Position numbers and translations under genes: made by a program
Assembly: GCA_014359475.1 (NCBI GenBank)
Contig: JACIZI010000005.1
Coordinates: 114,463-178,462, forward strand
Direction: 5' to 3'
From: Marinobacter sp.
Lineage (GTDB): Bacteria; Pseudomonadota; Gammaproteobacteria; Pseudomonadales; Oleiphilaceae
Length of the DNA stretch: 64,000 nt
Notes under the pieces: generated by a model
The model's database searches: none
Seen by the model: the letters and a program-made list of their open reading frames with translations, nothing else
Told to the model about the DNA's origin: nothing
Part shown: positions 42,043 to 63,887 of the stretch, in pieces
Layout of the letters: each line of letters starts with the position of its first letter
Position numbering within the stretch: the first letter of the stretch is position 1

Positions 42043-44484
42043 GTGAAAGAATTCTTGGTAAGTCGCTATCGCTCCGACAACCCCCAGGCGCAGGAGCGTC
42101 AGACGCTCATCCGCATTAACGACACCGGTAAAATTATCCACGCAGACTCCCACTGCGAGTCAGTGCTGGGTTACGAGGCGCAGGAACTCGAAGGCCGGCC
42201 GGTGCGCACGATTCTGGCCGCCCACGAGGATGACCCCTTCACGCCCGCCAACCGCCACCGCATCGAAAACGGCGACAAGGTGCTGATCACCCTGCGCCAC
42301 CGGGATCGATATTTCTTTACTGCAAGACTGACCCTGCGATCCAGCGTGAATGATTCGGATCAGGCGGCCACCGCCTGTATCCGGGTAAGGGACAATGTCC
42401 CGTTGGAAGCCCCCGTGGTGCGGCTGGCCGAATCCAGCGCCGGCATCGGCTTCTGGGACCTGGACACCCAGAACAACGAAGTGACCTGGAGCAGCGGCCT
42501 GTACCGGTTGCTGGGATTGCGTCCCGGCGCGGATATCACTCCGGATCAGGCGCTCTTCTACGCCCAGTCCCGACAGGGAAGGATACGGGCACTGGTGCGC
42601 CGCTGCATCCGGACCGGCAAGCCTTTCAGTATCGTGCTGGACATGCTTACCGCCCGTCAGCAGCCCAGCCGCATGAAGCTGACTGGCCAGGCCATCTACT
42701 GCGAGGGGCGGATCCACAAGCTGAGCGGCATCCTGATCAACCTGACAGACCAGCGGGAGCAAGAACAGGCACTGCAGAACAGCCGCAACCTCCTTGATGC
42801 CGTTACCTCCGCCAGCACCGACCTGATTGCGGCGGTGGACTGCGAACTGAACTTGTTGCAAGGCAACCAGGCCTTTGCAAAACAGTTCCAGAAACTGTTC
42901 GACCACTATCCGAGACCGGGGGATAACCTGTCGCGGCTGCTGAAAGATCACCCCAATGAACGCCGCATGATGGAGCGCCTGTGGCAGCGCGCCTTCGAGC
43001 GGGACAGTTTCCTGGTGGAAATGCCACTGGCCCAGCTCAATCCGGACCTGCCGGTGTATCAAATGCACTACCGACGGCTGGTCAACGGTGAGGGCGAAAC
43101 CTTTGGCGCAGTGCGCGTGGCCCGGGATACCAGCGCCCGGACACGCGCCGGTAACAGCGAATACCGCATCCGCCATGACCCGGTCACCGGCCTGCTCAAC
43201 CGGCGGGAGTTTCTCGCCCGGCTAGACCGCACCCTCAGGCAGAAGCGCCGCAAGTCGCTGGTGGGCAGTCTGCTGTATCTCGACCTGGACGATTTCGACA
43301 AGTTCAATGAAGAGGCCGGAAACAGTGCCGGCGACCGCTATCTGCGGGGGCTGGCAGGCAGCCTGGGCATTAAGGTACGCCAACGGGATGCGCTGGCAAG
43401 GCTTTCCGGTGACACCTTTGTGCTGCTGATGGAAAACTGCCCGGAGTCCCGGGCCAGGCAGATTGCCGGAGAGCTGATCCAGCATATCCGTGATTACCGG
43501 CTGGAATGGCAGGGACACGAACTGTACACCACCGCCACCGGCGGGCTGCTGATTCTGGATGGAGAATCGGATCAGGAACCGGAACAGCTGCTGGTGCAGG
43601 CCGCGGATCTTTGCCACACCGCCAGGATTGCCGGGCGTGACCGTTACCACACCGCCCACGCGGTCGTCGGCAATACCGTGGAAGGGGATGCCGGCCTGCT
43701 GCTGGAGCAGATCCATTACGCATTGGACAACCATAAGGTACTGTTGGAATTCCAGTCCATGAAGCCGGTCAACAGCGTCAGCTGGGGCGACCATATCGAA
43801 ATTCTGGCGCGAATTCCCGGCCAGAATGAGGATGAGCGAAGCATTCAGCCGGGGGCATTTTTGCCGATCGCGGAACGCTTTGATCTGGCCAAGCGGCTGG
43901 ACCGGGAGATTATCCGCCAGACTCTCGGCTGGCTGGAGCAACACCCGTTGTTGGAGCCCCGCCTCAAGTACTGCGGTTTCAACCTGTCCCTGGCGAGTAC
44001 CCTGGATGATACTTTTGCAGAGTTCATGGCAGAACAGCTCAAAGACTCACGTTACGCTCCGGAGGTGTTCTGCCTGGAAATCCGCGAAGCTCATGCCACC
44101 CAGTACCCTGAGGATGTCACGATACTGTGTGAAGCGCTGCACCATGTGGGCTGCCGTGTGGCACTGGACGGTGCCGGTGCCTCGGTGGAAAGCTACAGCC
44201 TGGCGGCGAAGCTGCCGGTCGACATCATCAAGCTGGATCGCAACATGATGCAGCATCTGGAGGATGACCCGGTGCAGGAAGTCATGGTCGAGGCCTTGCA
44301 CAAGATTGCCGAGGCGGCGGGCAAGGTGACTGTCGCCACCTTTATTGAAAACGACGACACCCTGCGCCATGTGCGCGCCCTGGGCATCCATTACGGCCAG
44401 GGCTACCGGTTGTTCCGGCCCCAACCCCTGAGCGCACTGAAGCCGGCCGCCGTGGAGCTGGCGACCGGCCGGATCGGCGGTTAG
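42043..44484 (+). CDS. PAS-GGDEF-EAL protein with degenerate catalytic motifs
   Basis: An 813-residue cytoplasmic protein with two or three PAS-like domains (about 15-110, 125-240, 250-365), GGDEF (375-545) and EAL (555-805). The cyclase loop reads SGDTF (455-459) in place of GGDEF, and no RxxD I-site is evident. In the EAL domain the EAL motif is EIL (586-588), the paired aspartates DDFG have become DGAG (709-712), and the AEGVE glutamate is a threonine (ATFIE, 765-769), while N647, E679, K730 and Q786 remain. It may thus be a cyclic di-GMP receptor rather than an enzyme. It is divergent from cyaA and overlaps the argH stop tail-to-tail. Confidence 0.88.
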
Positions 44485-45875
44485 CCTTCCGCCTTTCTGG
44501 CTCTGGCCACCGCTGCCCGGACCTGATCCGGGGCGGTGCCGCCGAGGTGATCCCGGGCCTGCACGGAGCCTTCCAGGGTCAGGACATCGAACACATCCTC
44601 GCCAATCACATCGGAGAACTGGCGCAGCTCATCCAGTGTCATATCGGACAGATCCCGGCCTTCAGCCACTCCGAAGGCCACGGATTTACCGACAATTTCG
44701 TGGGCATCCCGGAAGGGCACGCCTTTCTTGACCAGATAATCCGCCAGATCCGTCGCGGTGGAAAAGCCGCTCTTGGCCGCCACCCGCATGTTCGCCGATT
44801 TTGACCGGATCGCCGGCACCATGTCGGCGTAGGCTTTGAGGCAGCCCTTGACGGTATCCACGGTATCAAACAGCGGTTCCTTGTCTTCCTGATTGTCCTT
44901 GTTGTAGGCCAGCGGCTGGCTCTTCATCAGGGTCAGCAGGCTGATCAGGTGGCCATTCACCCGGCCAGTCTTGCCCCGCACCAGTTCCGGCACATCCGGA
45001 TTCTTCTTCTGGGGCATGATCGACGAACCGGTGCAGAAGCGGTCCGGCAGGTCGATGAAATCGAACTGCGCCGAGGTCCACAGCACCAGCTCTTCGCTGA
45101 AGCGGGACAGGTGGGTCATCAGCAGGGCCGCAAAGCTGCAGAACTCGATGGCAAAGTCCCGGTCACTGACCGAATCCAGGGAGTTTTCAGTCGGCCGGTC
45201 AAAGCCCAGCAGCCGGGCGGTCATGGCACGGTCAATCGGATAGGTGGTGCCCGCCAGTGCGGCGGCGCCCAGCGGCATTACATTGACCCGCTTGCGACAG
45301 TCCTGCAGCCGCTCGGCATCACGTACCAGCATTTCGTACCAGGCCAGCAGGTGATGACCGAAGGTGACCGGCTGGGCGGTCTGCAGGTGGGTGAAGCCGG
45401 GCATAATGGTGTCCGCTTCCCGCTCGGCCAGATCCAGCAGACCGCTGCGCAGGCGCTGCAGTTCGGCGGCAATCACGTCGATTTCGTCCCGCAGCCAGAG
45501 GCGGATATCGGTGGCCACCTGGTCGTTGCGACTGCGCCCGGTGTGCAGCTTCTTGCCGGTGATACCGATACGGTCAGTCAGCCGGGCCTCGATGTTCATG
45601 TGCACATCTTCCAGGCTCACCGACCACTGGAATTCGCCTTTTTCGATATCCTGGCGCACACCGTCCAGCCCCTCGATAATCGCGTCCCGCTCCTCAGTGG
45701 TCAGTACACCCACTTCCGCCAGCATGGTGGCATGGGCCACCGAGCCCGTAATATCATGGTGGTAGAGCCGCTGGTCAAACGCCACGGAAGCCGTGAACCG
45801 CTCCACAAAAGCGTCCGTCGGCTCACTGAAACGACCACCCCAGGGCTTATCGGAACTCTTGCTTTGATCCGTCAT
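44481..45875 (-). CDS. argH: Argininosuccinate lyase
   Basis: Last enzyme of arginine synthesis; cleaves argininosuccinate to arginine and fumarate. The 464 residues carry the superfamily signature [16 protein letters not shown] (about residues 280-295), the [13 protein letters not shown] segment and the [10 protein letters not shown] region. GGAG lies 10 bases before the ATG. Only about 15 bases separate its start codon from the proposed end of the mobile island, so its promoter is probably supplied or altered by inserted DNA. Confidence 0.97.
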
Positions 45876-45889
45876 GGTTTTAGAACTCC

Positions 45890-45904
45890 AGTAACATGTA
45901 ACAT
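45890..45904 (+). repeat. Proposed left end site of the island
   Basis: AGTAACATGTAACAT, itself a tandem of GTAACAT heptamers. Its near copy lies in inverted orientation at 54087-54101 (13 of 15 positions match, the two differences being A/G). Only 14 bases separate it from the argH start codon. Confidence 0.5.
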
Positions 45905-46109
45905 TTTCTCAAGTGCCTGTTTTTACAAGAAATCAGTAAAGTAACACTTTTTGGTGTTTTCCGCGTAATTTTGACCTCATTGTAACCTTTCAAGATTCAG
46001 GAATCGCGATGAATTTCGTGGGACGGTGGGAGGTTGCCAAGCAACTTTTAGGTGGCTGTACATACTCGGCAGGAGGGAAATTCTATGAGTGCTTGAACGC
46101 GTTCGTAAG

Positions 46110-46128
46110 GGTCGCAAAGCGAACATTC
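46110..46128 (+). repeat. 19-base direct repeat, copy 1 (upstream of lipoprotein gene)
   Basis: GGTCGCAAAGCGAACATTC; 18 of 19 bases are repeated at 47354-47372, so the two copies bracket the lipoprotein gene. Part of this copy also pairs with TCGCTTTG at 46148-46155. Confidence 0.6.
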
Positions 46129-46167
46129 AGATCAAAGTCCGAAGGGCTCGCTTTGAGGGTAGTGTGT

Positions 46168-46272
46168 GTCATGCGTATTTGGGTAAGTCCAATCATAGGC
46201 CAGGAGTGTCTAGTACACCGGGGTAAGTCCGTTTGAGGCGCGGGTCAGTCATACATATCGGGGTAAGCCCAA
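46168..46272 (+). repeat. Three imperfect direct repeats with an exact 40-base period
   Basis: GGGTAAG(T/C)CC occurs at 46181, 46221 and 46261, exactly 40 bases apart, each preceded by GTC 13 bases earlier. Copies 1 and 3 agree at 20 of 25 positions from GTC onward; copy 2 shares mainly GTC and GGGTAAGTCC. The phase is close to four helical turns, which suggests protein binding on one DNA face. Confidence 0.6.
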
Positions 46273-46403
46273 GACCTGAACCTCTGGTACTATTCACTGC
46301 ACGAAAACAAACTTTTCCAGCTATTCGCTTCTAGGAACGGGGTGACTGGAGGCAAGAAAAGCATAAAGTCTAGCTACGCGCATTACAAAACGGAGTACTT
46401 AAG

Positions 46404-47264
46404 ATGATTCGAACGCACAGCCCATTACTGCCAATCGCCATTTTTGTTATTGGGCTGTTAAGCGGCTGCGGCACAAGGATGTCATCCCAAGTGGATACCC
46501 AACCAGTGCCTATCGGCAATCAACACGTTGTGTACGAGCGCGGTGTTCCGTTAATTCAGAATATTGGCGAAAATACAACAGTAGTCGTCGCTCCTATGCA
46601 AACGCCACGAAGGTATCCTTATAGAAATAGTTTCTGGATTTCAGTAAGCAACAATTCGCCAGAAAGGTCGTTTCTCTTTGCAATTAAAGATATAAGCATC
46701 CACTACAACGACACCCCCATTAAAATCCTTTCCTACGCAGAAGCCGAAAACGAGGCTTATACGGCAATGCAGGATCAACAAATGGTGGCGGCACTGGCTT
46801 ACACCGCACAATCATTGAATGCTCAGGCGGCATCAACTTCAACCGTCCGCAGCACATCTAGTTCAGGTACTAGCTACCAAGTCTATGACCCCGCAAAAAC
46901 TCAACAGCTAAATATGCAGGCGGGAGAGCAGCTTAAGTCCAATCAAACTGAAGCAGCTTCGGCCTACGAGTCTAGAGTTGACGCACTCGAGGGATACGTC
47001 AGACGAGACACCATTGTTCCTGGCGAAACGTTCAGCGGTTACTTCATGTTCCGGATTCCAAACTTTCAAGCTGGAAAGGCTAACAATCTATCCATCAAAG
47101 TTACTGCGGAAAATGGGGTGCATGAGTTTAGGTTTCGCGAGTTCAACCTTGGGCTGAACCCATCACAAATAGATTCCGCTGCTTCAGCGGATGACCAGAA
47201 AAATGCAACTCAAGCCACCTCCAATGGAATCTTTTTGAAGGGTCGTAAACTTTGGGGAATGTAG
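46404..47264 (+). CDS. Island cargo: putative lipoprotein of unknown function
   Basis: A 286-residue protein with a lipoprotein signal (ILAIF-type hydrophobic core, lipobox LLSGC with Cys at about residue 22). The mature part has a beta-rich N-terminal half, a Ser/Thr/Ala/Gln-rich low-complexity middle (about 130-185) and a second beta-rich part (TIVPGETFSGYFMFRIPNF). CGGAG precedes the ATG. Base composition is clearly lower in GC than the backbone. I do not recognise the family. Lipid anchoring suggests a periplasmic or outer-membrane face location. Confidence 0.72.
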   Translation: MIRTHSPLLPIAIFVIGLLSGCGTRMSSQVDTQPVPIGNQHVVYERGVPLIQNIGENTTVVVAPMQTPRRYPYRNSFWISVSNNSPERSFLFAIKDISIHYNDTPIKILSYAEAENEAYTAMQDQQMVAALAYTAQSLNAQAASTSTVRSTSSSGTSYQVYDPAKTQQLNMQAGEQLKSNQTEAASAYESRVDALEGYVRRDTIVPGETFSGYFMFRIPNFQAGKANNLSIKVTAENGVHEFRFREFNLGLNPSQIDSAASADDQKNATQATSNGIFLKGRKLWGM

Positions 47265-47353
47265 GGTGCTCCCCCACTTTTAGCGTTGGCGTACTCAAAA
47301 TGAGACCTCAGGCCATCATGGTCAACTTCTGTTTAGAAAGAGATGGTAACCGA

Positions 47354-47372
47354 GGTCGCAAAGCGGACATTC
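47354..47372 (+). repeat. 19-base direct repeat, copy 2 (downstream of lipoprotein gene)
   Basis: GGTCGCAAAGCGGACATTC, one base different from the copy at 46110-46128. Here GCGGA-CAT-TCCGC also forms a small perfect hairpin. The 249 bases around it, between the lipoprotein gene and the next gene, contain an 83-codon frame that I do not accept as a gene. Confidence 0.55.
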
Positions 47373-47513
47373 CGCAGCTTGCTATGGCTCATACTGCAAC
47401 TTTAAAGAAGAGCCCTTTAGGTACGGATAGTGATTTAAAGTGTGTAGTTTTGAAATCAATGGATCGGATCTGGGCAGCTAAGCTTACAATATCGACTGTA
47501 TGAGTGGTATTTC

Positions 47514-47858
47514 ATGTCAAAAGTTAATAATCTAGTGAAGGCAGGTAGCGAAAAAGAGTCCATAGACTTTCTGGTAAAATACCGTGATGAGCTTATTCAT
47601 GAGATAGAGGTTGGCAAAAATCATATTGAAAAATTGAATACCATTTCAATCGAGAAAGAGGGCCGCCAAGAAGCGATTGATAGGGTGGAGAAAAAACTCG
47701 CTGAACATCAGAATGAGCTGAAGGCTGTTGACTCTAAAATCAAATTGGGGTTTTTCGATCTCGCATCCGAGAAAGAAATTAAAAAAATCAAGAATAGAAG
47801 ATGGTTGATTGTATTTTTCGGAGCCGCACTTGTGATTTTATTTTTTTATCTATTTTAG
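47514..47858 (+). CDS. Island cargo: coiled-coil protein with C-terminal membrane helix
   Basis: A 114-residue protein. Residues 5-85 are lysine/glutamate-rich heptad helices (EVGKNHIEKLNTISIEKEGR, then KKLAEHQNELKAVDSK). The C-terminus is one hydrophobic helix after a basic patch (KNRRWLIVFFGAALVILFFY), which makes it a tail-anchored inner-membrane protein facing the cytoplasm. AT-rich codon use marks it as foreign to the backbone. No family recognised. Confidence 0.65.
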   Translation: MSKVNNLVKAGSEKESIDFLVKYRDELIHEIEVGKNHIEKLNTISIEKEGRQEAIDRVEKKLAEHQNELKAVDSKIKLGFFDLASEKEIKKIKNRRWLIVFFGAALVILFFYLF

Positions 47859-47928
47859 TGAATTTTTCATAGTTAGTGTAAGCCAGAAATTTATTAAATC
47901 TCACCAGCAATTCCGGTTACCCTTTATA

Positions 47929-47943
47929 AGGGTGGTAAAATCC
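47929..47943. repeat. Perfect inverted repeat in the island intergenic region
   Basis: ACCCTT-TAT-AAGGGT, about 70 bases after the coiled-coil gene and 170 bases before the next. It lacks a T-run, so an operator or mRNA hairpin is as likely as a terminator. The rest of this 259-base gap is AT-rich, with no gene seen. Confidence 0.4.
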
Positions 47944-48117
47944 TACGCTAGTTGAACGTGAAATTTTATGTGCGCCGACGCGGCAGTATTTAATTAGCGA
48001 TAAGGCAAGAATATAAATATCACCAACTTACTTGACCAAGCTAAATTCGGTAGGACACAATCGATAATTTATACTTACAGGAATCTAATTTCGACTTTAA
48101 TTACATGGGAAGCAAAG

Positions 48118-48798
48118 ATGAAAAAATTGGTCATAAACGTATTTGCCGTCATCGCAATCGCAGGGATTGGTTACTTTTTTGGCTTGAAGCATGAAGAGAA
48201 TAAAACGGCCTTATCCTCTGGTTTCTTAAAGACTAGCCAGGAAGATCAAGGAAGACTCATTCTTCATGTGGATGAAGATATGAAGATCCAATCCCTTCTC
48301 AATTCTAAAACATGGGGAAAGACATCTTTTACAGAAACAAAGTTGGAATTAAATTATCGATCTGAAGTCAAGCCGGACTCTTTAATAGTAGAGAGAAACA
48401 CTCCTAATGGCATAAAGTTTTTGGTTAGATTTTCTAATGCCAATGTAAACCTGCCTCTGGAGTTTGATAAGAGTTTTGACGGTTTTAACCAATGGGGAGA
48501 GCTGGAAGAGGGTTACTATGTACAAGTAGCGGAGTATGATTTCGACAACGATGAAAAACCAGAAATTATTATCGCTATTGGTAATGGGTTGACTGACCTA
48601 GTAGTCAATATTATTGAGTACCATGCGCCCCAGTTGCCCAAAGATGCAGAGCGCACTGCCAACTGGACTTTGATTGGTTCGTTCCGGGGGCAGGGAAAAG
48701 CCTTTGTCGAAGGAGCGTCTATCCAGCTACCCTTTGGTGGGCAAGGTAGATATACCGAACACACTTGGGTCAAGAATAAATTTGTAGAAACCAACTAA
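48118..48798 (+). CDS. Island cargo: membrane-anchored periplasmic protein of unknown function
   Basis: A 226-residue protein with an N-terminal helix (VINVFAVIAIAGIGYFFGL, about residues 5-23) that may act as an anchor or signal. The rest is beta-rich. It contains an acidic calcium-loop-like motif DFDNDEKPEIII (about residues 140-151) of the kind seen in FG-GAP/VCBS or EF-like repeats, then GGQGRYTEHTWVKNKF near the end. Codon use is AT-rich. No family recognised. It may work with the two other envelope proteins of this cargo. Confidence 0.65.
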   Translation: MKKLVINVFAVIAIAGIGYFFGLKHEENKTALSSGFLKTSQEDQGRLILHVDEDMKIQSLLNSKTWGKTSFTETKLELNYRSEVKPDSLIVERNTPNGIKFLVRFSNANVNLPLEFDKSFDGFNQWGELEEGYYVQVAEYDFDNDEKPEIIIAIGNGLTDLVVNIIEYHAPQLPKDAERTANWTLIGSFRGQGKAFVEGASIQLPFGGQGRYTEHTWVKNKFVETN

Positions 48799-48801
48799 CA
48801 A

Positions 48802-48987
48802 TTGATTGATTTCCTTGCCATTGTGACCGTTTTTGCTTTTGTAGTGGTGGGGCTATATGCCGCTTACTACAAGATCGGCGATCTTTCATTGCGCTTTCCA
48901 ATGAAACGTGCATCTTTACAGATGGCTTACCAATGTTCGCTTTTGTTTAAAAGAGGAAGAAAAAGGTTCCGGCCAAAATCTGTATAG
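48802..48987 (+). CDS. Possible small membrane protein (61 residues, TTG start)
   Basis: The frame begins with TTG 4 bases after the preceding stop and encodes a hydrophobic helix (FLAIVTVFAFVVVGLYAAYY, about residues 4-23) followed by a basic tail ending KRGRKRFRPKSV. This is a plausible inside-positive single-pass protein, but the ribosome-binding site is poor. Its end comes 3 bases before the end of the convergent ginD-like gene. It could equally be chance. Confidence 0.35.
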   Translation: MIDFLAIVTVFAFVVVGLYAAYYKIGDLSLRFPMKRASLQMAYQCSLLFKRGRKRFRPKSV

Positions 48988-48989
48988 CA

Positions 48990-49400
48990 CTACTCACGCG
49001 ATTTCCCCCTAAAAACGGTAACGTTTTTACTTTCCAAGATTGCCGAGAGCCGGCGATTTTCGAGTTCAAGAGTGGCGTTTTTCGAAGCAAGTTCGTTGCG
49101 CTGCTCGGTCAAATCTACGATTTTTTCCCGAAGTTGACGATTCTTGAAACGCTCTTCCTTGAGTTTCTCCTGCTTCTCATCACGCTGTCTCTGGATCGCC
49201 TTGTTGGAATTGCCCCGGATGCGCTCCAGCAAGTCTGGGTAGTCTTTGTGGATCAAGGCACGACTGACTCCGGCCTCTTCGGCAACAGCGGCCACCGAGA
49301 CTTTCCTGCCCTTCTCAACGACCTTGGGCTGGTCTTTTTCCAACCGAACAATGGCCAGCCGAATACGCTTGTGAGTGTCTGATTCAGATGGCTTCGACAT
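48990..49400 (-). CDS. GinD/TnpC-like small DNA-binding protein
   Basis: A 136-residue basic protein. A TetR-like helix-turn-helix (SVAAVAEEAGVSRALIHKDY, about residues 34-53) is followed by a long coiled coil (RQLREKIVDLTEQRNELASK, then ATLELENRRLSAILE). It resembles the TnpC/DUF6262-type proteins that accompany multi-recombinase elements such as Tn554 and the ginD product of GInt islands, where it is needed for integration and excision. It overlaps the end of the third recombinase gene by 17 bases. Confidence 0.78.
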   Translation of the reverse strand: MSKPSESDTHKRIRLAIVRLEKDQPKVVEKGRKVSVAAVAEEAGVSRALIHKDYPDLLERIRGNSNKAIQRQRDEKQEKLKEERFKNRQLREKIVDLTEQRNELASKNATLELENRRLSAILESKNVTVFRGKSRE

Positions 49401-51237
49401 CGGCCACTTGCTCCTTGAGGCGATTGATGTCTACACCGAGATCCGTTAAAACCCTTTCGCAGCGTTCCATGGTGCGCTCGACGGTCTTTGATCCTGAGTC
49501 GTCCAGATCATCGATCTGGCGTAGCTCAATCTGTTGCATGTAAAGTCCTTCCCAGAAAGGCTTGTGACTATCATCAATACAACCGTGCTCGCAATCTTCG
49601 CATTGGCCACCCGCACAATCCACGCCGGTATCGTTGGTACACCAGGCAATGCCGGTGGACCGCAGGTAAACCAGTTCGCTGATGGCCTCAATCATCTCTT
49701 TCCGATCTTTGTAGGTACGCACTTCTTCCGAGCGGCTCCGCATTTGGCGGATATGACCGGCCATGCCACCGGAAAGCGGGGTATCAGGCTCCAACCAATG
49801 ACCGACAATCGCCTGACGTTTGCCGTCAAAAGCGGCGTAGATTTCGTCATAGAGCTCCAGATCCTGCGCCTCGTTCATTGCATACAGGATGGTCATATCC
49901 AGGCTCCAGTGCTTGAAGTGATCGCGCAGATAACGCAAGTCGCCCAGCTTGTGATGTACCACGTAGTTGGCAAAGGTGCGCCGGAACTGGTGAGGCGCGA
50001 GTTTCCAGTTTATCCCGAGGTTCTTTGCATACTTACTCAATCTCTTACGAAGGGCGATGCCACTGAGCCGATAAATGCTGTTTCCCTTACTGGTCACTTT
50101 GGTCAGCCCGATGCAGCCTGAGCAGGCTTGTAGGCGCGTCACTTCCTGCAAGTCTCCGGCTGCCCTTGCCTCTTTCAGCGCCTGCTCAAGCTCAGCCTGC
50201 AAGGGGCCTGAAAGCCGCTCTAAGACTTTTACAGCATGAATAGCGATTTCTGGACACAGCCATGAGGTTTCGCCCGCATGGGTTTTGTCCGAGCGTGAAC
50301 CCAGGAAGTAGAACCTCTCACCCTCACGAACCTCGCTGTACCACTGATCTCGCCGGATATTTCCGAGTTCATGGGCTCGTATGCCTGTGGTCGCCAGAAT
50401 GATCACGAAACAGCCGTCACGCAGGTCGAGCAGTGTCCTGTTCAGTGCACCTAGCCCCTCATCCCAACCTTGGTTTTTCAACAAACCGATCAGTTCTTCC
50501 CACTGATCAGCGTGGTTTTTCGAACGAGGTTCGAACTGTGACACTGCATCCCGATGTTCCATCAAGTCGTTGGCTTGGCTGAGCAGAGATTCGGCGTGCT
50601 GAAACAGAGGCCGCAAAATATCATCGGGAATTATGTCCGTCTTCGCTTTGTTCGAATCCTTGTGCCCGGCCAACACGAGGGCGGAGCTTTCTGGCCAAGG
50701 ATGATCAAAGCCGTGGGGAGTATCTCGCAGCAAGTGCCAGCTTCGTTCAACAGCCGATAACCGGCTCCACTTCGTCATGCTACTCAGTGGCTTCCCGGGT
50801 TTACGCCGCGCGGTCAAACGTTGGACGTATTGAGCGTAGCGGACCGCGACCAAAGGGGTGACCTGCGCCTGGCTAATGATGCCCTGGTCGTGCAACCAGT
50901 TCAGCCAAGACACCAGATTCTGGAAAACAATGACGACCGAGCCGTTGCCCAGCGACTTCTCGCCCCAGATGATGCGGGCCAGGACGATTTTGGCCTCGGA
51001 TCGCAGTTCCTCGCCTTTGATCCGTGCAAAATCTAGCTTTCGGAAGCCATCCGTCTGGTTACCAGTGCTCTTGGCTTTGGGCAACCACCACTCCGGATCT
51101 TCGTACCGAGAGAGCACGTAGAGCATCCCATCGGCCCGATCCGTGGTGATGATACCGTGCAGTCCCTCATCAATGGGTAACGCTCTCAACAGCCGCTCGC
51201 GGTCGGCCAGTACCTCTGCGCCCGTGACCTCGCTCAT
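49384..51237 (-). CDS. Large tyrosine recombinase (GinC-like)
   Basis: A 617-residue site-specific recombinase. The C-terminal catalytic domain shows R in ATTGIRAHELGNI, HQFRRTFANYV, and H/W and Y in HFKHWSLDMTILYAMN. A cysteine cluster (WCTNDTGVDC, then CEDCEHGC, about residues 555-580) could bind zinc, as in other large recombinases of this type. The ATG at 51237 forms an ATGA overlap with the upstream recombinase stop; the frame is open 22 codons earlier but inside that gene. It is third in the operon. Confidence 0.82.
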   Translation of the reverse strand: MSEVTGAEVLADRERLLRALPIDEGLHGIITTDRADGMLYVLSRYEDPEWWLPKAKSTGNQTDGFRKLDFARIKGEELRSEAKIVLARIIWGEKSLGNGSVVIVFQNLVSWLNWLHDQGIISQAQVTPLVAVRYAQYVQRLTARRKPGKPLSSMTKWSRLSAVERSWHLLRDTPHGFDHPWPESSALVLAGHKDSNKAKTDIIPDDILRPLFQHAESLLSQANDLMEHRDAVSQFEPRSKNHADQWEELIGLLKNQGWDEGLGALNRTLLDLRDGCFVIILATTGIRAHELGNIRRDQWYSEVREGERFYFLGSRSDKTHAGETSWLCPEIAIHAVKVLERLSGPLQAELEQALKEARAAGDLQEVTRLQACSGCIGLTKVTSKGNSIYRLSGIALRKRLSKYAKNLGINWKLAPHQFRRTFANYVVHHKLGDLRYLRDHFKHWSLDMTILYAMNEAQDLELYDEIYAAFDGKRQAIVGHWLEPDTPLSGGMAGHIRQMRSRSEEVRTYKDRKEMIEAISELVYLRSTGIAWCTNDTGVDCAGGQCEDCEHGCIDDSHKPFWEGLYMQQIELRQIDDLDDSGSKTVERTMERCERVLTDLGVDINRLKEQVADVEAI

Positions 51238-52880
51238 ATCGCCATCCTCGCCATGCTCAGGTCTCGCCAGAACGGGTGGGGATTGTCTTTCGCTTTCTCG
51301 CATTGTTCTTTCACGAGCGCTTGATCAAAGCGAGGTGCAATCTCTTCATCGATCAGTCGAATCACTTTCTTGAGATATTTGGTCCAACGCTTACCAGCAA
51401 AGGTGTCGTAATTGCGCAGGGCGGCCCAGTAAAAGCTGAACAGGCGATACAGGTCATCTCCGGTGATCACGAAGCTCTTGCACCGGAAGCAGCCGAGGTA
51501 GTCTTGGCAGGGTTGGCCGTTTTTTGGGGCGCGCTGCCCGCGACGGACATCTTTGCAAGACGCCACGGGCGTCCGGTCACTGGCGATGATATCCGGCTTA
51601 CTAAGAAGCTCCTGAACACGCGTCTCGCCTAAAAAACGCATATTGGTTTCCGCTTCCGGTGGCGCCTCCCAGTAGTGGGCATTGCCCGTCTGAACCGTGT
51701 GCCGCCCCGTTCTGGCTGTGATCAACGGGTCTTGACCAGACATCTCCCACACTCGATTCAGAAGTGTCTGACGCAACCGAGTGACGTTCAACATGAGCGG
51801 CTTCCCATCGTCCGTTTGAAGCTGGTGTTGGTCGACAAGTAGCTTGATGATGTAGTGCAAATGGCTGGCAGTGAGTCGACATGGTTTGCCCGCGTGCTTG
51901 CCCCGCACTGGCTCGTAGACCAGCAGTCGCCCCCGATCACCCAGCTGGGCGCGTATAGAGGCATTCCTCGTAACGATCAGATCAATGGCATCAGCGGCAT
52001 AGAGATGGATACTGGCCATTTCCGATACTTCCTCTGACTTTCTCAGGGCAACCACGTGCGTGGCGTTGCCGCGACGTTTAAAGCTCACAAGCAGACGCAG
52101 GTTGGATTTGAGCGGATGAGGCTGCACGCAGTCCGTGGTGAGTTCCAGGATGGGTGCCGGATTCATTCCAGTAGACAGAGCGATGGACAGCGCGCAAACG
52201 GTCAAATCGTAGCTGTTCAGCGGCTCCGAGTGGGCCACAATTCGTTCCATCTCTATGCGCAGCGCTTTGATCAAAAACCGCTTTTCATTTTTGCTGAGCG
52301 CCTTCTGGCTCTTACGTCGTTTGTTGGAATTCGGAAACGGATTGGCAGGCCAAACCGTTTTCATATCTACTTCCGGCCAGAACCCGAACCGATGACATGC
52401 CACAAGCAGGGATTTGGTTTTGGTAAAGTGACCCTTTTGCGAGCCGTATTCGATGGGCTCGTTCCTCAGGTGCTGAATAAATCGCTTGATCGTTTCGGCG
52501 TTGAGATCCGCCATAGTCAGGCTTTCACCACTAGCAGCGTGGAGTAACGACAGAAAGGGCGCAAAGTGACGAAAGCCAACGTTCCAGTTACCCACAATCG
52601 TGGTCAGGCTGAGGGACTTTCCATTAGTTTTGACGCTCTCAGCGACCAGCTTTTCGAGGGTGCACTGACAGGCGGCGGTGATGTCGTCGAAGCCCTGACC
52701 GTAAAATGGCCCGAAGTCCGCGTTTCTCGTGTTTGTTGTGTTTTCGGGAAAGGCAACGACCGCGTTCTCTGGCTTTGAGAGCGGCGATGGTTCGATGGTT
52801 TCGGTCTTCGCGTTGTTCGCCGTCTCGTCAACCGCCTTAACCCCAATATCATCACCGTCTAGCGTGAAATCTTTTTTCAT
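51234..52880 (-). CDS. Tyrosine recombinase, divergent (GinB-like)
   Basis: A 548-residue phage-integrase-fold protein. A long N-terminal region precedes the catalytic part, in which VTRLRQTLLNRV and TGRHTVQTGNAHYW correspond to the R and H/Y segments. The first catalytic histidine of HxxR seems to be replaced. A C-x2-C pair (YLGCFRCKSF) follows, again suggesting zinc. It overlaps the genes on both sides by 4 bases, so the three recombinases are made from one message. Confidence 0.78.
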   Translation of the reverse strand: MKKDFTLDGDDIGVKAVDETANNAKTETIEPSPLSKPENAVVAFPENTTNTRNADFGPFYGQGFDDITAACQCTLEKLVAESVKTNGKSLSLTTIVGNWNVGFRHFAPFLSLLHAASGESLTMADLNAETIKRFIQHLRNEPIEYGSQKGHFTKTKSLLVACHRFGFWPEVDMKTVWPANPFPNSNKRRKSQKALSKNEKRFLIKALRIEMERIVAHSEPLNSYDLTVCALSIALSTGMNPAPILELTTDCVQPHPLKSNLRLLVSFKRRGNATHVVALRKSEEVSEMASIHLYAADAIDLIVTRNASIRAQLGDRGRLLVYEPVRGKHAGKPCRLTASHLHYIIKLLVDQHQLQTDDGKPLMLNVTRLRQTLLNRVWEMSGQDPLITARTGRHTVQTGNAHYWEAPPEAETNMRFLGETRVQELLSKPDIIASDRTPVASCKDVRRGQRAPKNGQPCQDYLGCFRCKSFVITGDDLYRLFSFYWAALRNYDTFAGKRWTKYLKKVIRLIDEEIAPRFDQALVKEQCEKAKDNPHPFWRDLSMARMAI

Positions 52881-54016
52881 GCGCAGGCCGCCTCCTTCGC
52901 GGTTTCCTCAATTTCTTCCTGATAACTGGTGCGCAGGTCGTCTTCAATGTCGTCGAGGAAATGCAGGTATTTTTCGGTCGTTGTAATGCTGCTGTGGCCG
53001 AGGCGATCTCGGACATAGATCAAGGGATTGAAAGTCGTGCTCTTTCGGGACAACAACGATTTCAGGGTGTGCGTCGCGTAGGTATGACGCAGGATGTGGG
53101 GATGGCAGGCGAACGACAGCTTCAATCGGTTCAGTTGATTGTTGAGCGAGGTTGGAATGCTCCAGGACTTGCCCTTGGCGGTCACAAAGAGGGTTTTGGG
53201 GTCTGTGCCGTGCTTTCGGATCGTTTCATGACGTTCGTGAATCACGTAGTCCCAGAGATCCGCCATCAATGATATCGGCACATGGATCGTCCGTGGCTTG
53301 TCTCCCTTGGTGCTCATCTCTTGGGGTTTAAGCTCAACAACTACATGACTTCGAGCCGAGATCGATTGGGGGGCTGACACATAAGTAACTGGAAACGTCA
53401 GAAGCTCTTCTTTACGCAACCCCGTCAGCAAGCCCAGGCGAACGATCAATCGAAGCGTTTTGTTGTTGATACTTTTGAGCAGCTCTTCCACTTGTTCTTT
53501 GTTGAGGACTTTGATCCTGGTTGGCGTGGTTTTCAGCAGCACATCCGGCTTTACGGCATACCCCCCGGACGTGTCTGTGTGTGCGAGGAAACCCTTTGTC
53601 TGTTTGACTCTCACCGTTTCAAGGTCATACGGCAACGTGCTTACCCAACCGTGTTTGAGGGCAAACTGATAAAACTTGATGACCAGGTGAAGTCGTCGGT
53701 TTACCGTGGAGGCGTTAAGGTTAAATCGATCAAAGGAAACGTCGCGATACAGGGCTAACAGGGTTTCGTGATTTCGGTGATCAAGCTCTCTCCAATCAAA
53801 CCCATTGGCTTCAATGAACTCGAAATAATCACACAGATCCCTTCCAAACGTTTCCCAACTACGTCGGCTTTGCACACTTCCACGTTTTAAGCAGTGATGA
53901 ACGAGAAATTCCATTCCTTCGACAAACACATCATGATTGGATTTGAGAAGAATCGGGAAGCCTTCATAGGAATGGCCCCTGATTTCAAACTCTGGTGTCG
54001 CTAGGATGAATTCCAA
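52877..54016 (-). CDS. Tyrosine recombinase (GinA-like), first gene of the island operon
   Basis: A 379-residue integrase with an N-terminal SAM-like domain and an intact catalytic set: R in LTGLRKEELLTF, HPHILRHTYATH, H in RLGHSSI and Y in TTEKYLHF. I place the start at a TTG preceded by GAAGAG; no ATG is available in the open frame, which begins at a TAA 8 codons earlier. A rare ATT start is an alternative. It reads away from the island's right end. Confidence 0.83.
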   Translation of the reverse strand: MEFILATPEFEIRGHSYEGFPILLKSNHDVFVEGMEFLVHHCLKRGSVQSRRSWETFGRDLCDYFEFIEANGFDWRELDHRNHETLLALYRDVSFDRFNLNASTVNRRLHLVIKFYQFALKHGWVSTLPYDLETVRVKQTKGFLAHTDTSGGYAVKPDVLLKTTPTRIKVLNKEQVEELLKSINNKTLRLIVRLGLLTGLRKEELLTFPVTYVSAPQSISARSHVVVELKPQEMSTKGDKPRTIHVPISLMADLWDYVIHERHETIRKHGTDPKTLFVTAKGKSWSIPTSLNNQLNRLKLSFACHPHILRHTYATHTLKSLLSRKSTTFNPLIYVRDRLGHSSITTTEKYLHFLDDIEDDLRTSYQEEIEETAKEAACA

Positions 54017-54051
54017 TGCTCGCTCTTCAATGCTGTATTTTTAAACAGTGT

Positions 54052-54063
54052 AAGCATATGCTT
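54052..54063. repeat. 12-base palindrome upstream of the recombinase operon
   Basis: AAGCATATGCTT, a perfect palindrome 36 bases before the ginA-like start. It is well placed for autoregulation by the small DNA-binding protein or for recombinase binding. Position-based inference. Confidence 0.4.
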
Positions 54064-54086
54064 TAAGGATGCAACAGGAAGCGTTC

Positions 54087-54101
54087 ATGTTACATGCTAC
54101 C
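54087..54101 (-). repeat. Proposed right end site of the island
   Basis: Read on the minus strand it is GGTAGCATGTAACAT, a near copy of AGTAACATGTAACAT at 45890-45904. It lies outside the first recombinase gene, where an attachment site is expected. Confidence 0.5.
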
Positions 54102-54144
54102 AAGTGGCGAAATCTCAGAATATGAGGATGGATAACCGCAGTAA

Positions 54145-54158
54145 TGGGTTGGAACCCA
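54145..54158. repeat. 14-base palindrome between island and resolvase
   Basis: TGGGTTGGAACCCA, 6-bp perfect arms with a 2-base centre, 118 bases upstream of the resolvase gene. It could be part of a resolution site or an operator. The rest of this 259-base gap shows no gene. Confidence 0.35.
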
Positions 54159-54275
54159 GCATGGAAACGGTCGTTTGTTGGACGCCTAGACCCTTCGTGC
54201 GAAAACCTGCAATTTCTAGTTGTTTTGTGTCCAAAAATCACGTACAAAAAACTATGATTAGAAAAGGTGCGTTTA

Positions 54276-54839
54276 ATGATCATAGGCTATGCGCGTGTCA
54301 GTACCCAAGATCAAAATCCTGAGTTCCAGGTGGATGCTCTGGAAAAAGCTGGGTGTGAGCAAATCTTTCAGGAGAAGTTTACCGGTAAGCTGCGTGAGCG
54401 ACCTGAGTTGTCGCTGTGTCTTCGTACCCTGCGAAAAGGAGATGTTCTCGTCGTCTGGAAGCTGGACCGGTTAGCACGTTCACTGAAAGACCTAGTTGAG
54501 ATTGTTCAAGACCTGAATGATCGCGAGATTGGTTTTAAATCACTCACCGAAGCAATTGATACGACGAGCTCCGGTGGCCGACTGGTATTTCATATCTTTG
54601 GCGCACTGGCAGAGTTTGAGCATGACCTCATTAGAGAACGCACAAAGGCTGGTCTTCAGGCAGCCAGGGCACGAGGACGAAAAGGTGGGCGAAAACCCTC
54701 GATGTCCGATTCGGATGTCCGTAAAGCCGCGGCCATGCTCTCCGACCCTCAAATCACGAAAACAGAAGTTGCGGCTCACTTCGGTGTGACTCGAACGACG
54801 TTGAACGCCTCACTTAAAAGAATTGGATTGGCTGCCTGA
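54276..54839 (+). CDS. Serine recombinase (resolvase/invertase family)
   Basis: A 187-residue small serine recombinase of the Tn3-resolvase/Hin type. The catalytic serine is in YARVSTQDQN (S9), the arginine-rich active-site segment is WKLDRLARSLKDL (about 64-76), the long E-helix begins at GALAEFEHDLIRERT, and the C-terminus is a helix-turn-helix (TKTEVAAHFGVTRTTLNASL). A second in-frame start (GTG, 3 codons earlier) is possible. No transposase gene accompanies it. It points toward hsdM, 42 bases away. Confidence 0.88.
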   Translation: MIIGYARVSTQDQNPEFQVDALEKAGCEQIFQEKFTGKLRERPELSLCLRTLRKGDVLVVWKLDRLARSLKDLVEIVQDLNDREIGFKSLTEAIDTTSSGGRLVFHIFGALAEFEHDLIRERTKAGLQAARARGRKGGRKPSMSDSDVRKAAAMLSDPQITKTEVAAHFGVTRTTLNASLKRIGLAA

Positions 54840-54881: not shown

Positions 54882-56867
54882 ATGACTGACGACAAAACCA
54901 ACCACTCCCAAACCGCCGCGTTTATCTGGTCGGTTGCCGACCTTCTACGCGGTGATTTCAAGCAGAGCCAGTATGGGCGGGTCATCCTGCCGTTTACCCT
55001 GCTGCGTCGTCTGGAGTGTGTTCTTGAGCCAACGAAGGCTCAGGTACTGTCAGCAGCCCAGGAGCATCAGACCAAACCGGATGCAGTTCGTGAGAAGCTT
55101 TTGCTTCGAGCCGCTGGCCAGCAGTTCTTTAATGCTTCTCCCTTAAGTCTGGCTACTCTGTCTGACAGCCAAACGGCTGACGACCTGATGAGCTATGTTC
55201 AGTCGTTCAGCCAGGATGCCCGGGAGATTTTCGAGCATTTTCATTTCGAAGACTTCGTACAACAACTCAGTGCCAACAACTTGCTCTACCAGGTGGTGCA
55301 GCGGTTTGCCAGCATTGACCTGAGCCCGGCAACCATCAGCAACTTCGGTATGGGGATCATCTTTGAAGAATTGATCCGGAAATTTGCGGAGAGCTCTAAT
55401 GAAACGGCCGGGGAACACTTCACGCCACGGGATATCGTGCATCTGACCACCTCCATTGTCCTGACCGGACAGGAGAACCGGTTAACGCCTAATAGCATTG
55501 TGACCATCTACGATCCTACAGCTGGAACGGGCGGGTTCTTGTCCGAAGGCGACGAGTACATTCAGCAGATCAGCGAGAGTGTCACCGTCTCGCTACACGG
55601 CCAGGAATTGAACCCGGAGTCCTACGCCATCTGTAAAGCCGACATGCTGATCAAAGGCCAGGAAGTCAGCAATATCAAGCTCGGCAACACGCTGTCGGAT
55701 GATCAGCTGGCTACTAATAAGTTTGACCTGATGCTCAGTAACCCGCCATTTGGCGTGGAATGGAAAAAGGTGCAGAAGCAGGTCACTGATGAGCACAAGC
55801 ATCGAGGCTTTGATGGTCGTTTTGGGCCTGGGCTTCCCCGTGTGTCCGATGGCTCCCTGCTGTTCCTGATGCACCTGGTCAGCAAAATGCGGGATGCCCG
55901 CGAGGGTGGATCCCGGATCGGCATCATCCTCAATGGTAGCCCATTGTTTACGGGTGGGGCTGGCAGTGGCGAATCCGAAATTCGGCGCTATCTACTGCAG
56001 AACGATATGGTCGAAGCCATCGTGGCTCTGCCAACAGATATGTTCTACAACACCGGAATCTCCACCTATGTGTGGGTGCTTTCCAATAACAAGCCTGCTG
56101 AACGCAAAGGCAAGGTTCAGCTGATTGATGCTACTGACCGGGCGACCAAGATGCGTAAGTCCCTCGGCAGTAAGCGCCAGTTTGTCAGCGAGTCCGACCA
56201 GGGCGAGATCGTGCGCATGTACGGCGACTTCCAGGAAACCAAGAAAAGTAAAATCTTCCCCATCGAAGTCTTCGGTTACCGACGTATCACGGTTGAGCGT
56301 CCGCGAAAGCTGAACTTCCAAACTTCAGAAGAGCGAATCGCTCGGATTGCGGACGAAAAAGCCATCCAGAAAATGGATCAGGAAGACCAGAACAAGATCC
56401 TCGCGGCGTGTCGTGCCCTGGATGCCAATACGGTCTACCGAAATCGCAAGCAGTTCCAGAAGGCCCTGAAGGCTTCGCTCACCGATCATCAGGTGTACCT
56501 GAGTGCCCCTCAACTGAAAGCCCTGCTCAATGCGCTGAGTGAGCGCGACCCAGAAGCGGATACCTGCACGGACAGCAAAGGTAATCCAGAAGCCGATACC
56601 GGCCTGCGGGATTATGAGAACGTCCCCCTCACAGAGTCCGTGTACGACTACTTTGAGCGAGAAGTGAGACCCCATGTGCCGGACGCCTGGATTGATGAAG
56701 CCAAGCGGGACGAGAAGGATGGCGAAGTGGGTATTGTTGGCTTCGAGATTCCGTTTAACCGGCACTTCTATGAGTTCACGCCACCCCGCCCGTTGGATGA
56801 GATTGACGCGGATCTGAAGCAGTGTACTAATCGGATCAAGCAGATGATTGAGGAGCTGTCTGCGTGA
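54882..56867 (+). CDS. hsdM: Type I restriction-modification DNA methyltransferase subunit HsdM
   Basis: The 661-residue N6-adenine methyltransferase subunit of a type I system. The N-terminal HsdM_N helical domain ([20 protein letters not shown], about 14-33) precedes the catalytic domain with SAM motif [10 protein letters not shown] (211-220) and catalytic NPPF (287-290). The C-terminal part after residue 480 is long and helical. GGAGC lies before the ATG. Its stop overlaps the hsdS start (GTGA), so M and S are translated together. Confidence 0.95.
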
Positions 56868-58279
56868 GCCTTGATACATATCCAAGATACAAAAACTCAA
56901 ATATCGAATGGATCGGGGAAGTGCCCGCGCACTGGCGGGTAGCATCACTGCGGTGGTATGCGTCGATCCAAGGTGGGGTGGCCAAGGGAAAAAACTACAA
57001 TGCCGAAACTCCTGTAGTCGATCTCCCATACCTTCGAGTAGCAAATGTTCAGGATGGATTCTGTGACCTTTCGTCAGTAAGTACCGTGACTGTCGCGGTC
57101 TCCGAAGTCGACCGATACCGGCTTCATCCCGGTGATGTGTTGATGAACGAGGGTGGTGATAACGATAAGCTTGGACGTGGTGCAGTGTGGCAGGGGCAGG
57201 TCGAAAACTGCCTTCACCAGAACCATGTATTTGCGATCCGGCCCAACCGGCACCTTCTCCCGTACTGGCTTTCCATGTTCACTCGCTCGGCTGCAGCCCG
57301 CTCATACTTCTACCTTTACTCAAAACAGAGCACCAACCTGGCCTCGATATCCTCTAGCAATGTCATGTCTTGCCCATTGCCATTTCCCTCAACTCAAGAA
57401 CAGCGCCAGATACTGGGATTTTTAGACCACGAAACCGCTAAAATCGACGCCCTAATCCGCGAGCAGGAGCGCCTGATAGAACTGCTTCAGGAAAAGCGCC
57501 AGGCGGTGATTTCCCATGCGGTGACGAAGGGGTTGGATCCGGATGTGCCGATGAAGGACTCCGGGGTGGAGTGGCTTGGGGAGGTGCCGGCGCATTGGAG
57601 AGTCGGAAAGTTAAGGTGGTATGCAACCATCCAAGGAGGAGTTGCGAAAGGTAAGGACTATCAGGATCAGAAAACGGTTTCTCTTCCCTATTTGCGAGTT
57701 GCAAACGTCCAAGCAGGTTACGTGGACTTGACGGAAGTGAAGGAGATAGCGGTCCTGGAGTCTGAGATTGAGCGGTATAGCTTGAGGCATGGTGACGTCC
57801 TCATGAATGAGGGGGGAGACAACGATAAATTAGGGAGAGGAACAGTATGGAGAGCCGAAATAGAACCTTGCCTGCATCAGAATCATGTTTTCGCCATTCG
57901 CCCAAATAGGTATTTGACGCCTGAGTGGCTGGCAATGTTTACCCAATCAAGCCGGGCTCGTTCGTATTTCTTCCTTAACTCAAAACAAAGTACGAATTTG
58001 GCATCAATATCATCTAGCAACGTGATGAACCTAGATTTGCCGATGCCTTCAGTGGATGAGCAGGAACGAATACTTCAATTTCTCGAGTCTGAACTTCAGC
58101 AATTCACTGATTTACAAAAACAAGCAGATAAAGGAATTCAACTACTTTTGGAGCGCCGGTCAGCCCTAATTTCAGCCGCTGTCACCGGGAAAATCGATGT
58201 CCGTAACTGGCAGCCACCAGTCGATGAAAGCGCCTTTGATGAAGAGGTACGCCAAGCCGGGATGGAGGCAACGGCATGA
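56864..58279 (+). CDS. hsdS: Type I restriction-modification specificity subunit HsdS with two near-identical target-recognition domains
   Basis: A 471-residue specificity subunit with the normal layout TRD1 (about 20-170), central coiled-coil spacer ([20 protein letters not shown]), TRD2 (about 234-385) and distal conserved helices. Unusually, the two TRDs are about 70% identical by hand alignment, sharing blocks such as [12 protein letters not shown] and [14 protein letters not shown], so both half-sites should be alike and the target close to palindromic. In the first shared block 9 of 12 codons differ synonymously (57146-57181 against 57806-57841), and TRD2 uses more AT-rich codons. The start is GTG; the end overlaps the next gene by ATGA. 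Confidence 0.93.
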
Positions 58280-59196
58280 GCCGCGGTCGCGGAATCCGTC
58301 TGTTCTTAGTTGATGGCACTCCGAACGGCTTGTTGACCGCCGAAATCATGAACTGGACTGGCCACGCCCTGACGGGGCCCCGCACCAAACTGACCGAGTT
58401 GGTGCAGAGGCCAGAGTGCGGTCGTACCGGTGTGTATTTCCTGGTTGGCCCAGATCCAGACAACGCCATGCGTCCTTTGGTCTACATCGGCGAATCCGAT
58501 GATGTGGCCAAGCGACTGAAACAGCACAACCGTCCGGAGCCCCAAGGCGGCAAGGATTTCTGGGAACGGGTGTGCCTGATCACCAGCAAAGATCAGAATC
58601 TCACCAAAGCTCATGTGAAATACCTGGAAAGCCAGCTCATCACCATTGCCAAGCAATCCGGACGCTGTGGTCTGGTCAACGGTACCGCCCACGATTACAC
58701 CGTGCTCCCTGAGTCCGATCAGGCGGACATGGCGTTCTTCATCGAGCAAATTCGCATCACCCTTCCGGTTCTGGGTTTCGACTTCCTCCGAGAGCCTGCT
58801 GCGCTGCACACCAAGTCGCCATCGTCCGACGAAGACACATTGTTTGAGATGGAATTGCCAAAATACGGCGTTAAAGCGCAGGCACGAGAAATTGATGGCA
58901 GTTTTGTCGTCCTTCAGGGATCTGAAGCCCGTCCCAAATGGACAGCCAAGGCTAACGGTTATGGCAACCTGTACGACCAGTTGGTGAAGGATGGAATGCT
59001 GGCAGACGAGACCAACGGGAAACGGCTGTTTGCCCAAGACTATGAATTTAACAGTCCAAGTGCCGCTGCGGCTATTGTATCCGGCCGAAATGCCAATGGC
59101 CGAATCAGCTGGATGGTCAAGGGTAGCCAGACAACCTATGGAGACTGGCAAAGCTCACTCGTTGAGGCTCAGGATTCGCCAGAGCTCACGGACTGA
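58276..59196 (+). CDS. GIY-YIG nuclease-domain protein with C-terminal DUF4357
   Basis: A 306-residue protein. The GIY-YIG core is recognisable: GVYFLVG (52-58), VYIGES (69-74), the arginine of DVAKRLKQHN (R80) and a metal-binding glutamate candidate in VKYLESQL (E118). The C-terminus (FNSPSAAAAIVSGRNANGRI, about 257-276) matches DUF4357, often found attached to such proteins. It is embedded in the hsd operon with a 4-base overlap with hsdS. Proteins of this type often neighbour type I systems; whether it cuts DNA or helps the system is not known to me. Confidence 0.82.
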   Translation: MSRGRGIRLFLVDGTPNGLLTAEIMNWTGHALTGPRTKLTELVQRPECGRTGVYFLVGPDPDNAMRPLVYIGESDDVAKRLKQHNRPEPQGGKDFWERVCLITSKDQNLTKAHVKYLESQLITIAKQSGRCGLVNGTAHDYTVLPESDQADMAFFIEQIRITLPVLGFDFLREPAALHTKSPSSDEDTLFEMELPKYGVKAQAREIDGSFVVLQGSEARPKWTAKANGYGNLYDQLVKDGMLADETNGKRLFAQDYEFNSPSAAAAIVSGRNANGRISWMVKGSQTTYGDWQSSLVEAQDSPELTD

Positions 59197-59228
59197 ACCC
59201 ACAAAGATCTGGAATAAGGCAGTACCTC

Positions 59229-60056: not shown

Positions 60057-60101
60057 GCGAAAACCGGGTACCAAGCGGGTCAAAGGATACAAGGAGTAGT
60101 C

Positions 60102-63287: not shown

Positions 63288-63324
63288 TATTGAAGAAACG
63301 ATTTAATGCGTAAGCTTGGCACCT

Positions 63325-63885: not shown

Positions 63886-63887
63886 TT

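Follow-up and report, generated by a model that had tools for sequence, protein, structure and literature searches.

Which element occupies the start of argH in this Marinobacter sp., and how far does it reach? We analyzed a 64,000-nt stretch of DNA (G000:C45:114,463-178,462; "the window", in whose coordinates positions are given below), the right edge of which coincides with the end of contig C45. An initial annotation had placed a compact island of the GInt type at this locus. Our reading is that the locus probably harbors an element of the SE type (SE, strand-biased circularizing integrative element) inserted at the argH start codon, with its C' end at argH, its C end most likely at algZ on another contig (C28), an internal recombinase operon, and cargo on both sides. 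What the sequences show directly are the operon, the 3' end, the occupied site and the six-base footprints of the relatives, which fit the rule described for SEs.

The recombinase operon and its family

The element carries four genes, A to D, which overlap head to tail on the minus strand (48,990-54,016 in the list of open reading frames, ORFs). This agrees with the operon originally described, consisting of three recombinase genes of 379, 548 and 617 aa and a small gene, which encodes 136 aa; all four frames are intact in this genome. Since the block is conserved in other species, including Marinobacter spp. and, on IncC plasmids, Vibrio, the arrangement is not due to chance. Gene A (52,877-54,016, TTG start) encodes an intA-like tyrosine recombinase, gene B (51,234-52,880) a tfp-like protein, gene C (49,384-51,237) an intB-like large tyrosine recombinase, and gene D (48,990-49,400) a srap-like protein with an N-terminal TetR-like helix-turn-helix (HTH). 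For gene C the longest frame would give 639 aa, and the length of 617 aa was adopted following the relatives, which are annotated at 1,854 nt. The Pfam matches of D lie under the curated cut-offs (TetR_N 18.7 bits, cut-off 24; DUF6262 28.5 bits, cut-off 29). The claim of three tyrosine recombinases holds for the domains, as A, B and C all have integrase-type Pfam domains (Phage_integrase, PF00589, for A and C; a SAM-like integrase domain for B), but not for catalysis: in all 15 aligned rows, B has Asn in place of the first catalytic Arg and no His in HxxR. The catalytic residues of A are kept in 15 of 15 aligned rows, and all 14 rows of gene C have the Arg, HxxR and Tyr blocks.

SEs form a young class, whose core genes and host range were set out in 2023 (PMC10214605). 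According to that text the second SE protein, Tfp, lacks catalytic residues, and in GInts it is the third protein, GinC, that lacks the first arginine (PMC5385486). When family profiles were compared with SE-6945 (pSEA1), A matched IntA with 104 bits, B matched Tfp with 24, C matched IntB with 84 and D matched Srap with 19, the best off-diagonal score being 1.0 bit; bits are quoted because the E-values refer to a four-sequence database. Alignment with hhalign against SE-6945 gave 99, 66, 99 and 83% for A, B, C and D in order, and in a motif scan of SE-6945 itself IntB showed both the Arg and the HxxR block and Tfp showed no Arg block. The gene order of SEs, intA-tfp-intB-srap with a non-catalytic second gene, is present here, and homology extends to all four proteins, weakly for Tfp and Srap. 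Because the non-catalytic gene stands second and SE-6945 is matched position by position, the element appears to be of the SE type rather than a GInt.

That it is nevertheless a true ginABCD island, as was first proposed, seems very improbable. Three recombinase-like genes with a small gene, an AT-rich far end and target specificity would all suit a GInt, and D and the small gene of L191, an operon beside ssb, both resemble DUF6262; the position beside ssb has been reported for several GInts (PMC5385486). However, the non-catalytic gene is not the third, nor are the first two both catalytic, and L191, taken as a stand-in for GInts, matched in order with 90% for A and no more than 15% for the other three. 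L191 has Pfam integrase domains in its genes 1 and 2 and none in gene 3; since its three large genes all show an Arg block in a motif scan, its status as a GInt is unproven and it makes a weak yardstick. Membership was rejected on the strength of the gene order and the SE profile matches, the named GinA-D not being among the sequences compared. In two further operons, L188 and L190, the genes match A to D in the same order, and the third one has the Arg and HxxR blocks. By eye, the first gene of these SE-like operons abuts genes resembling shortened hsdS, which suggests hsdS as an insertion target.

The insertion site at argH

The target gene argH (44,481-45,875, minus strand) is an ORF of 464 aa with 81-85% nucleotide identity to argH of 29 congeners, and its start codon falls within the 6-bp crossover spacer of the element. 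Read on the minus strand, this attR spacer (45,873-45,878) is ACCATG, the same six bases as the native argH target, and it adjoins the 3' terminus with motif C', GTTACATGTTACTGGAGTTCTAAA (45,879-45,902, minus strand). The left end, first placed near 45,890, does lie at argH, its exact position being 45,879. The terminus follows a pattern common to nine located 3' ends, all nine of which fit GTTACATGT(T/A)AC, 7 nt, CTAA(A/T) and NNNATG; a search for the pattern in the available stretches of G471 and G488, which may not reach the end, found none. It belongs to a conserved AT-rich 3' tail of 254 bp (45,879-46,132), which is 91% identical to that of a Vibrio IncC plasmid element, 91-92% identical to both copies in G492, and 77-78% identical to the tails of M. 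persicus, G406 and G481.

The locus was compared with 29 congener loci which, together with the window's own, came from 55 genomes with a match (own included). In all 29 sampled congener loci the starts of argH and algZ are divergent and lie 46-144 bp apart, and the site in the window is thus occupied; none of the operon carriers described below happens to be among these 29. By pattern, the native ACCATG is present at 27 of the 29 empty argH sites, the misses being L006 and L018. In the genome studied, conserved sequence ends at the start codon of argH and begins again at algZ (C28:12,315), and the argH-algZ interval holds at least 18.1 kb on C45 plus 12.3 kb on C28. The initial annotation was right about a mobile island next to argH. 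The 3' end abuts the gene, and the site is empty in every one of the sampled congener loci.

Insertion at a start codon raises the matter of argH expression. In the C' end of the window, a ribosome-binding-like GGAG lies 10 nt ahead of the argH ATG, and GGAG, AGGG or AGGA stands just before the spacer ATG in all nine located 3' ends, which are related and not independent (in L080 and L082 the stretch was read by eye). From these letters we suggest that the C' end could keep argH translated. A scan of 45,876-46,420 for sigma-70 promoters and terminators found no promoter, with 0.5 expected, and no terminator, with 0.4 expected, so that a promoter for argH within the tail is unsupported. By eye, the family members L080 and L082 are inserted inside umuC, at an internal ATG.

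Relatives and six-base footprints

A search of 124 genomes, own included, for the full operon found it in six other congeners, G481, G406, G447, G492, G471 and G488. We took G406 as Marinobacter sp. 1-4A (= G422) and G481 as Marinobacter sp. S6332 (= G420), and equating G447 with M. persicus is a guess. An element end lies at argH in at least G406, G481 and G492, and also in M. persicus (L077). Close relatives of gene B occur in Marinobacter spp., M. persicus, Marinobacterium, a metagenome-assembled genome of the Sphingomonadales, and Vibrio IncC plasmids. The two copies on contig C1 of G492 are 99.98% identical over their first 5,173 bp and 98.4% identical over their last 256 bp; outside these 5' and 3' parts no further similarity was detected at E 1e-5, the cargo being unrelated. 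Either the cores have been homogenized or the cargo has been swapped.

In SEs, the native target bases stay beside C and the donor bases are left beside C' (PMC10214605). The six insertions with a known empty site (five at argH and one in IncC) follow this rule when the relatives and the window are taken together: the six bases on the intA side are those of the native target in 6/6 and the six bases on the far side are non-native in 5/6. On the intA side ACCATG is found in the window's own element, L077, G406, G481 and G492a, and CTCATG in IncC, and the far side reads ACCATG in the own element, GTTATG in L077, CCCATG in G406, GAGATG in G481, CCAATG in G492a and CAGATG in IncC. The own element, G406 and G481 enter these figures only on the condition that the algZ-side end belongs to them, and without them the figures are 3/3 native and 3/3 non-native. 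For the Vibrio IncC copy the exact empty site is known from an element-free IncC plasmid, with native CTCATG on the intA side and foreign CAGATG on the far side. The copies in G492 are reciprocal, the argH copy having ACCATG and the copy at the second site CCAATG on the intA side, with CCAATG and ACCATG, respectively, on the far side. The far-side bases would mean that the previous site of an element can be named; for the window they would indicate, at most, an argH-like donor site.

The inner junction and the proposed outer end

Alignments to relatives define a conserved core (48,932-54,079) besides the conserved 3' tail, and similarity to the 5' part of other elements ends at 54,078-54,079. 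The operon-terminal members begin with TTTTGTACC...AATGTAAC directly before A, in the canonical operon-at-C arrangement (L077, L078, L080, L081, L082, G492a and G492b, with variants in G471 and G488). The window, G406 and G481 have no such start before A and instead share another sequence there. In the absence of a canonical C end beside A, we term the island an SE-type variant and not a standard SE. Beyond the core lies a degenerate stretch resembling an intA-side terminus (54,089-54,112, minus strand), identical in G406 and G481, which has no NNNATG spacer and, judged by its sequence, is probably not a working end. The right end at 54,101 that had originally been given does not hold up: similarity stops before it, the degenerate stretch follows, and a separate module begins at 54,166. 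As a demonstrated right end the position was rejected, the canonical terminus being missing there and present at algZ on C28.

The proposed outer terminus C, ACCATG followed by TTTTGTACTCATAAAACTGTAAC, lies at algZ at C28:12,314, outside the window. The same end, TTTTGTAC...GTAAC with ACCATG just before it, is found at algZ in the own C28, in G406 and in G481, and ACCATG followed by TTTTGTACTCATAAAACTGTAACC, the canonical outer end, is located at algZ on the own C28, on C1 of G481 and on C19 of G406. In G406 the operon, the resolvase, defense genes and the algZ-side terminus are all on one contig of 625,781 bp. The island is hard to reconcile with the compact 8.2-kb unit first proposed, as the empty site of relatives runs from argH to algZ and the right junction was found on C28 and not near 54.10 kb. 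It is probably larger than 30 kb, with the operon internal. The piece adjoining algZ, comprising a helicase, a 210-aa protein and a KfrA-like protein, shows 92% identity between the own C28 and G406. The algZ region flanking it reaches only 66%, a difference that points to transfer. Parts of the piece recur elsewhere in congeners, and it is thus cargo. Beside the 210-aa/helicase pair in the congener loci L198 and L199 there is a possible further recombinase set, of about 717, 160 and 499 aa in L198, with weak profile scores of 10-19 bits.

It could also be that a compact SE-type element (45,879 to about 54,112) stands in tandem with a second, older island carrying the resolvase and a restriction-modification (R-M) system and ending at algZ. 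We consider this unlikely. The intA-side-terminus-like stretch lies where such an element would end, the resolvase/R-M module has a left boundary of its own at 54,166, and the three relatives with both ends measured have lengths of 9.3 kb (L081) and of 9.4 and 14.5 kb (the G492 copies). Yet that inner stretch lacks an NNNATG spacer, whereas the other intA-side ends, nine operon-adjacent and three at algZ, all end in ATG (12/12). Neither a second 3' tail, sought in C28 and G406, nor a second SE operon was found, the contig gap lying outside both searches; two weak A-like matches were obtained, one on C28 at a tyrosine recombinase of 302 aa (E 6e-6) and one in G406 (E 8e-4). Moreover, three species share an identical inner junction despite their differing argH-side footprints, which is as expected if the block inserted independently in the own genome, G406 and G481.

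A quite improbable alternative is that the operon no longer moves and that the block is inherited defense-island DNA. The mixed contents and the possible loss of an original C end next to intA could be read in this way, but all four frames are intact, the block is absent from the 29 sampled congener loci, and the closeness of the algZ-side module to that of G406, far above that of its flank, argues against simple inheritance.

Several observations weigh against an SE-type element that extends from argH to algZ. The core operon does not lie at the motif-C end here, nor in G406 and G481, and in nine other close members with the 5' end seen it comes directly after C. The terminus-like stretch at 54,089-54,112 is present, whatever its state. 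The own operon (C45) and algZ (C28) are on separate contigs and their continuity is not shown in this genome, and in G481 (S6332) the operon, the algZ side and the argH side are on three contigs, the contig carrying RND-pump-like and hydrolase-like genes (by eye) past the algZ-side module. The window is the sole exception to the non-native far side, with ACCATG on both sides, and its footprint is uninformative by itself; the attR difference CCCATG/ACCATG between G406 and the window could be a single mutation. Finally, the Tfp match of B and the Srap match of D are weak. We nevertheless retain the SE-type element with internal operon as the probable explanation.

Cargo and modules

To the right of the degenerate stretch, a 19-bp motif, AACGGTCGTTTGTTGGACG (54,166-54,184, plus strand), starts a resolvase module, and the modules of relatives differ from here on. 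The own genome, G406 and G481 show 100% identity in 50-nt windows over about 54,080-54,184, and the windows in the resolvase then drop to 0.58-0.82. The serine resolvase gene (54,267-54,839, plus strand; Pfam Resolvase, 3.4e-46) is followed by a type I R-M system, probably 5' cargo (54,882-63,287), with, all on the plus strand, hsdM (54,882-56,867), hsdS (56,864-58,279), a DUF4357 gene with a weak GIY-YIG match (58,276-59,196), an ORF (59,229-60,056) and hsdR (60,102-63,287). The remainder (63,288-64,000) continues the island to the contig end. Different R-M genes lie behind the resolvase in the own genome, G406 and G481. Of the 124 congener genomes, 37 match the query only in its resolvase part, some over short stretches, and the 19-bp module start was present (with at most three mismatches) in 12 of 13 further loci matched only in that part (L129-L141); the remaining one, L132, is on a contig that begins inside the resolvase gene. 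The left flanks of these modules differ, save for one common to L129 and L140. On this sequence pattern we read the resolvase/R-M modules as being exchanged at the 19-bp site, and the module, with its sharp left boundary, is perhaps a mobile defense module in its own right.

On the argH side of the operon, the 3' cargo (46,133-48,931) has a G+C content of 0.43, and the last 61 nt of the element have 0.31, against 0.60 in the window left of argH; the short cargo and AT-rich far end of the original description are thus confirmed. Its three ORFs (46,404-47,264, 47,514-47,858 and 48,118-48,798, all on the plus strand) have no convincing family match, and PADLOC gave no match for the first and third. 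We disfavor the idea that they are integron cassettes, because their reading direction is toward the operon and none of the ORFs in this part matches an integrase family. An 84-bp intergenic repeat at 46,110-46,192 is 79% identical to C28:5,222-5,305 and recurs in L080 and, in part, in L082 and G492b; the repeat near 46,104-46,192, for which an element end or an integron attC site had been considered, looks like a dispersed intergenic repeat.

A model for mobility

By analogy with published SE experiments, A and C would exchange one strand between both ends, with B and D assisting without catalysis, and a circle would be copied out carrying the six bases beside C. On insertion, the carried bases would end beside C' and the six bases of the new target beside C. 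The junction of the large circle would then read CTAAA-ACCATG-TTTTGTACTC, and the cargo of the 5' arm would include the resolvase/type I R-M module. It is from this analogy that we infer that the element is active, that it is copied out and that the whole block moves together. A fuller model, which we put forward tentatively as plausible rather than likely, is a two-armed SE in which the operon is internal, exchangeable cargo lies on both sides, the 5' arm docks swappable resolvase-borne R-M modules at the 19-bp site, and the ribosome-binding-like stretch of C' keeps argH translated. If the two-armed form is true, the operon need not be terminal and such islands can hold swappable phage-defense modules. 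The footprints would in addition let the last location of an element be read from sequence alone, and the G492 genome with its two copies offers a natural test of cargo exchange.

Comparison with known systems

With this lineage, the known range of SEs comes to include Marinobacter and the IncC plasmids of Vibrio. Among the papers listed in searches of the open-licence literature, none reported SEs in Marinobacter or at argH, and the word 'Marinobacter' is absent from the main text of PMC10214605. The element on the IncC plasmids pVb1796 and pVb1282-tet (NZ_MH113855.1 and NZ_OQ622010.1) shares with the window the operon (89% nucleotide identity) and the 3' tail, but it is compact, with the canonical C end beside intA, is inserted in the plasmid backbone, and carries as cargo an integron with resistance cassettes. 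In L081 (NZ_MH113855.1, 18,777-28,051) an integron integrase and cassettes annotated blaVMB-1, dfrA1 and carbenicillinase are present. Zheng et al. (2020) reportedly describe the VMB-1 plasmid. That study is cited for the plasmid in PMC9604146, the consulted passages of which do not name the element. A dfr-like cassette on the argH contig of Marinobacter sp. 1-4A (L098, G422 C25, 1,663-2,246) is 99.7% identical over 584 bp to that of the Vibrio plasmid, and an integron-integrase-like fragment lies beside the operon of G406 (C19:55-318, by eye), on another contig than argH.

With SE-6945 and SE-6283 of Vibrio alfacsensis, as presented in PMC10214605, the element has in common the order intA-tfp-intB-srap, the non-catalytic second gene, the TetR-like HTH in the small gene, imperfect inverted ends, the 6-bp footprint rule (in relatives of the window) and a marine host. 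It differs in that protein identity between SE-6945 and the window operon is low, about 22-33% where alignable, and in three features of layout: spacers ending in ATG, an operon that probably lies inside the element and not at its C end, and cargo on both sides. GInts (PMC5385486) likewise have three recombinase-fold proteins and a small protein, cargo, an AT-rich 3' end and a crossover of about 6 nt, but their non-catalytic protein is the third and not the second, a distinction drawn from the published description. The gin operon also delimits the 5' end of a GInt, an arrangement that the window would lack if the algZ-side end belongs to this element but might have under the tandem reading. 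Tn554, to which the operon had been likened more loosely, shares an ordinary and a large recombinase, a small protein and the 6-bp footprint (the last as stated in PMC10214605); however, it has three genes, tnpA-tnpB-tnpC, and no tfp counterpart (PMC10214605), where the window has four genes and a non-catalytic second one, and it is by this description, not by sequence, that the two are set apart.

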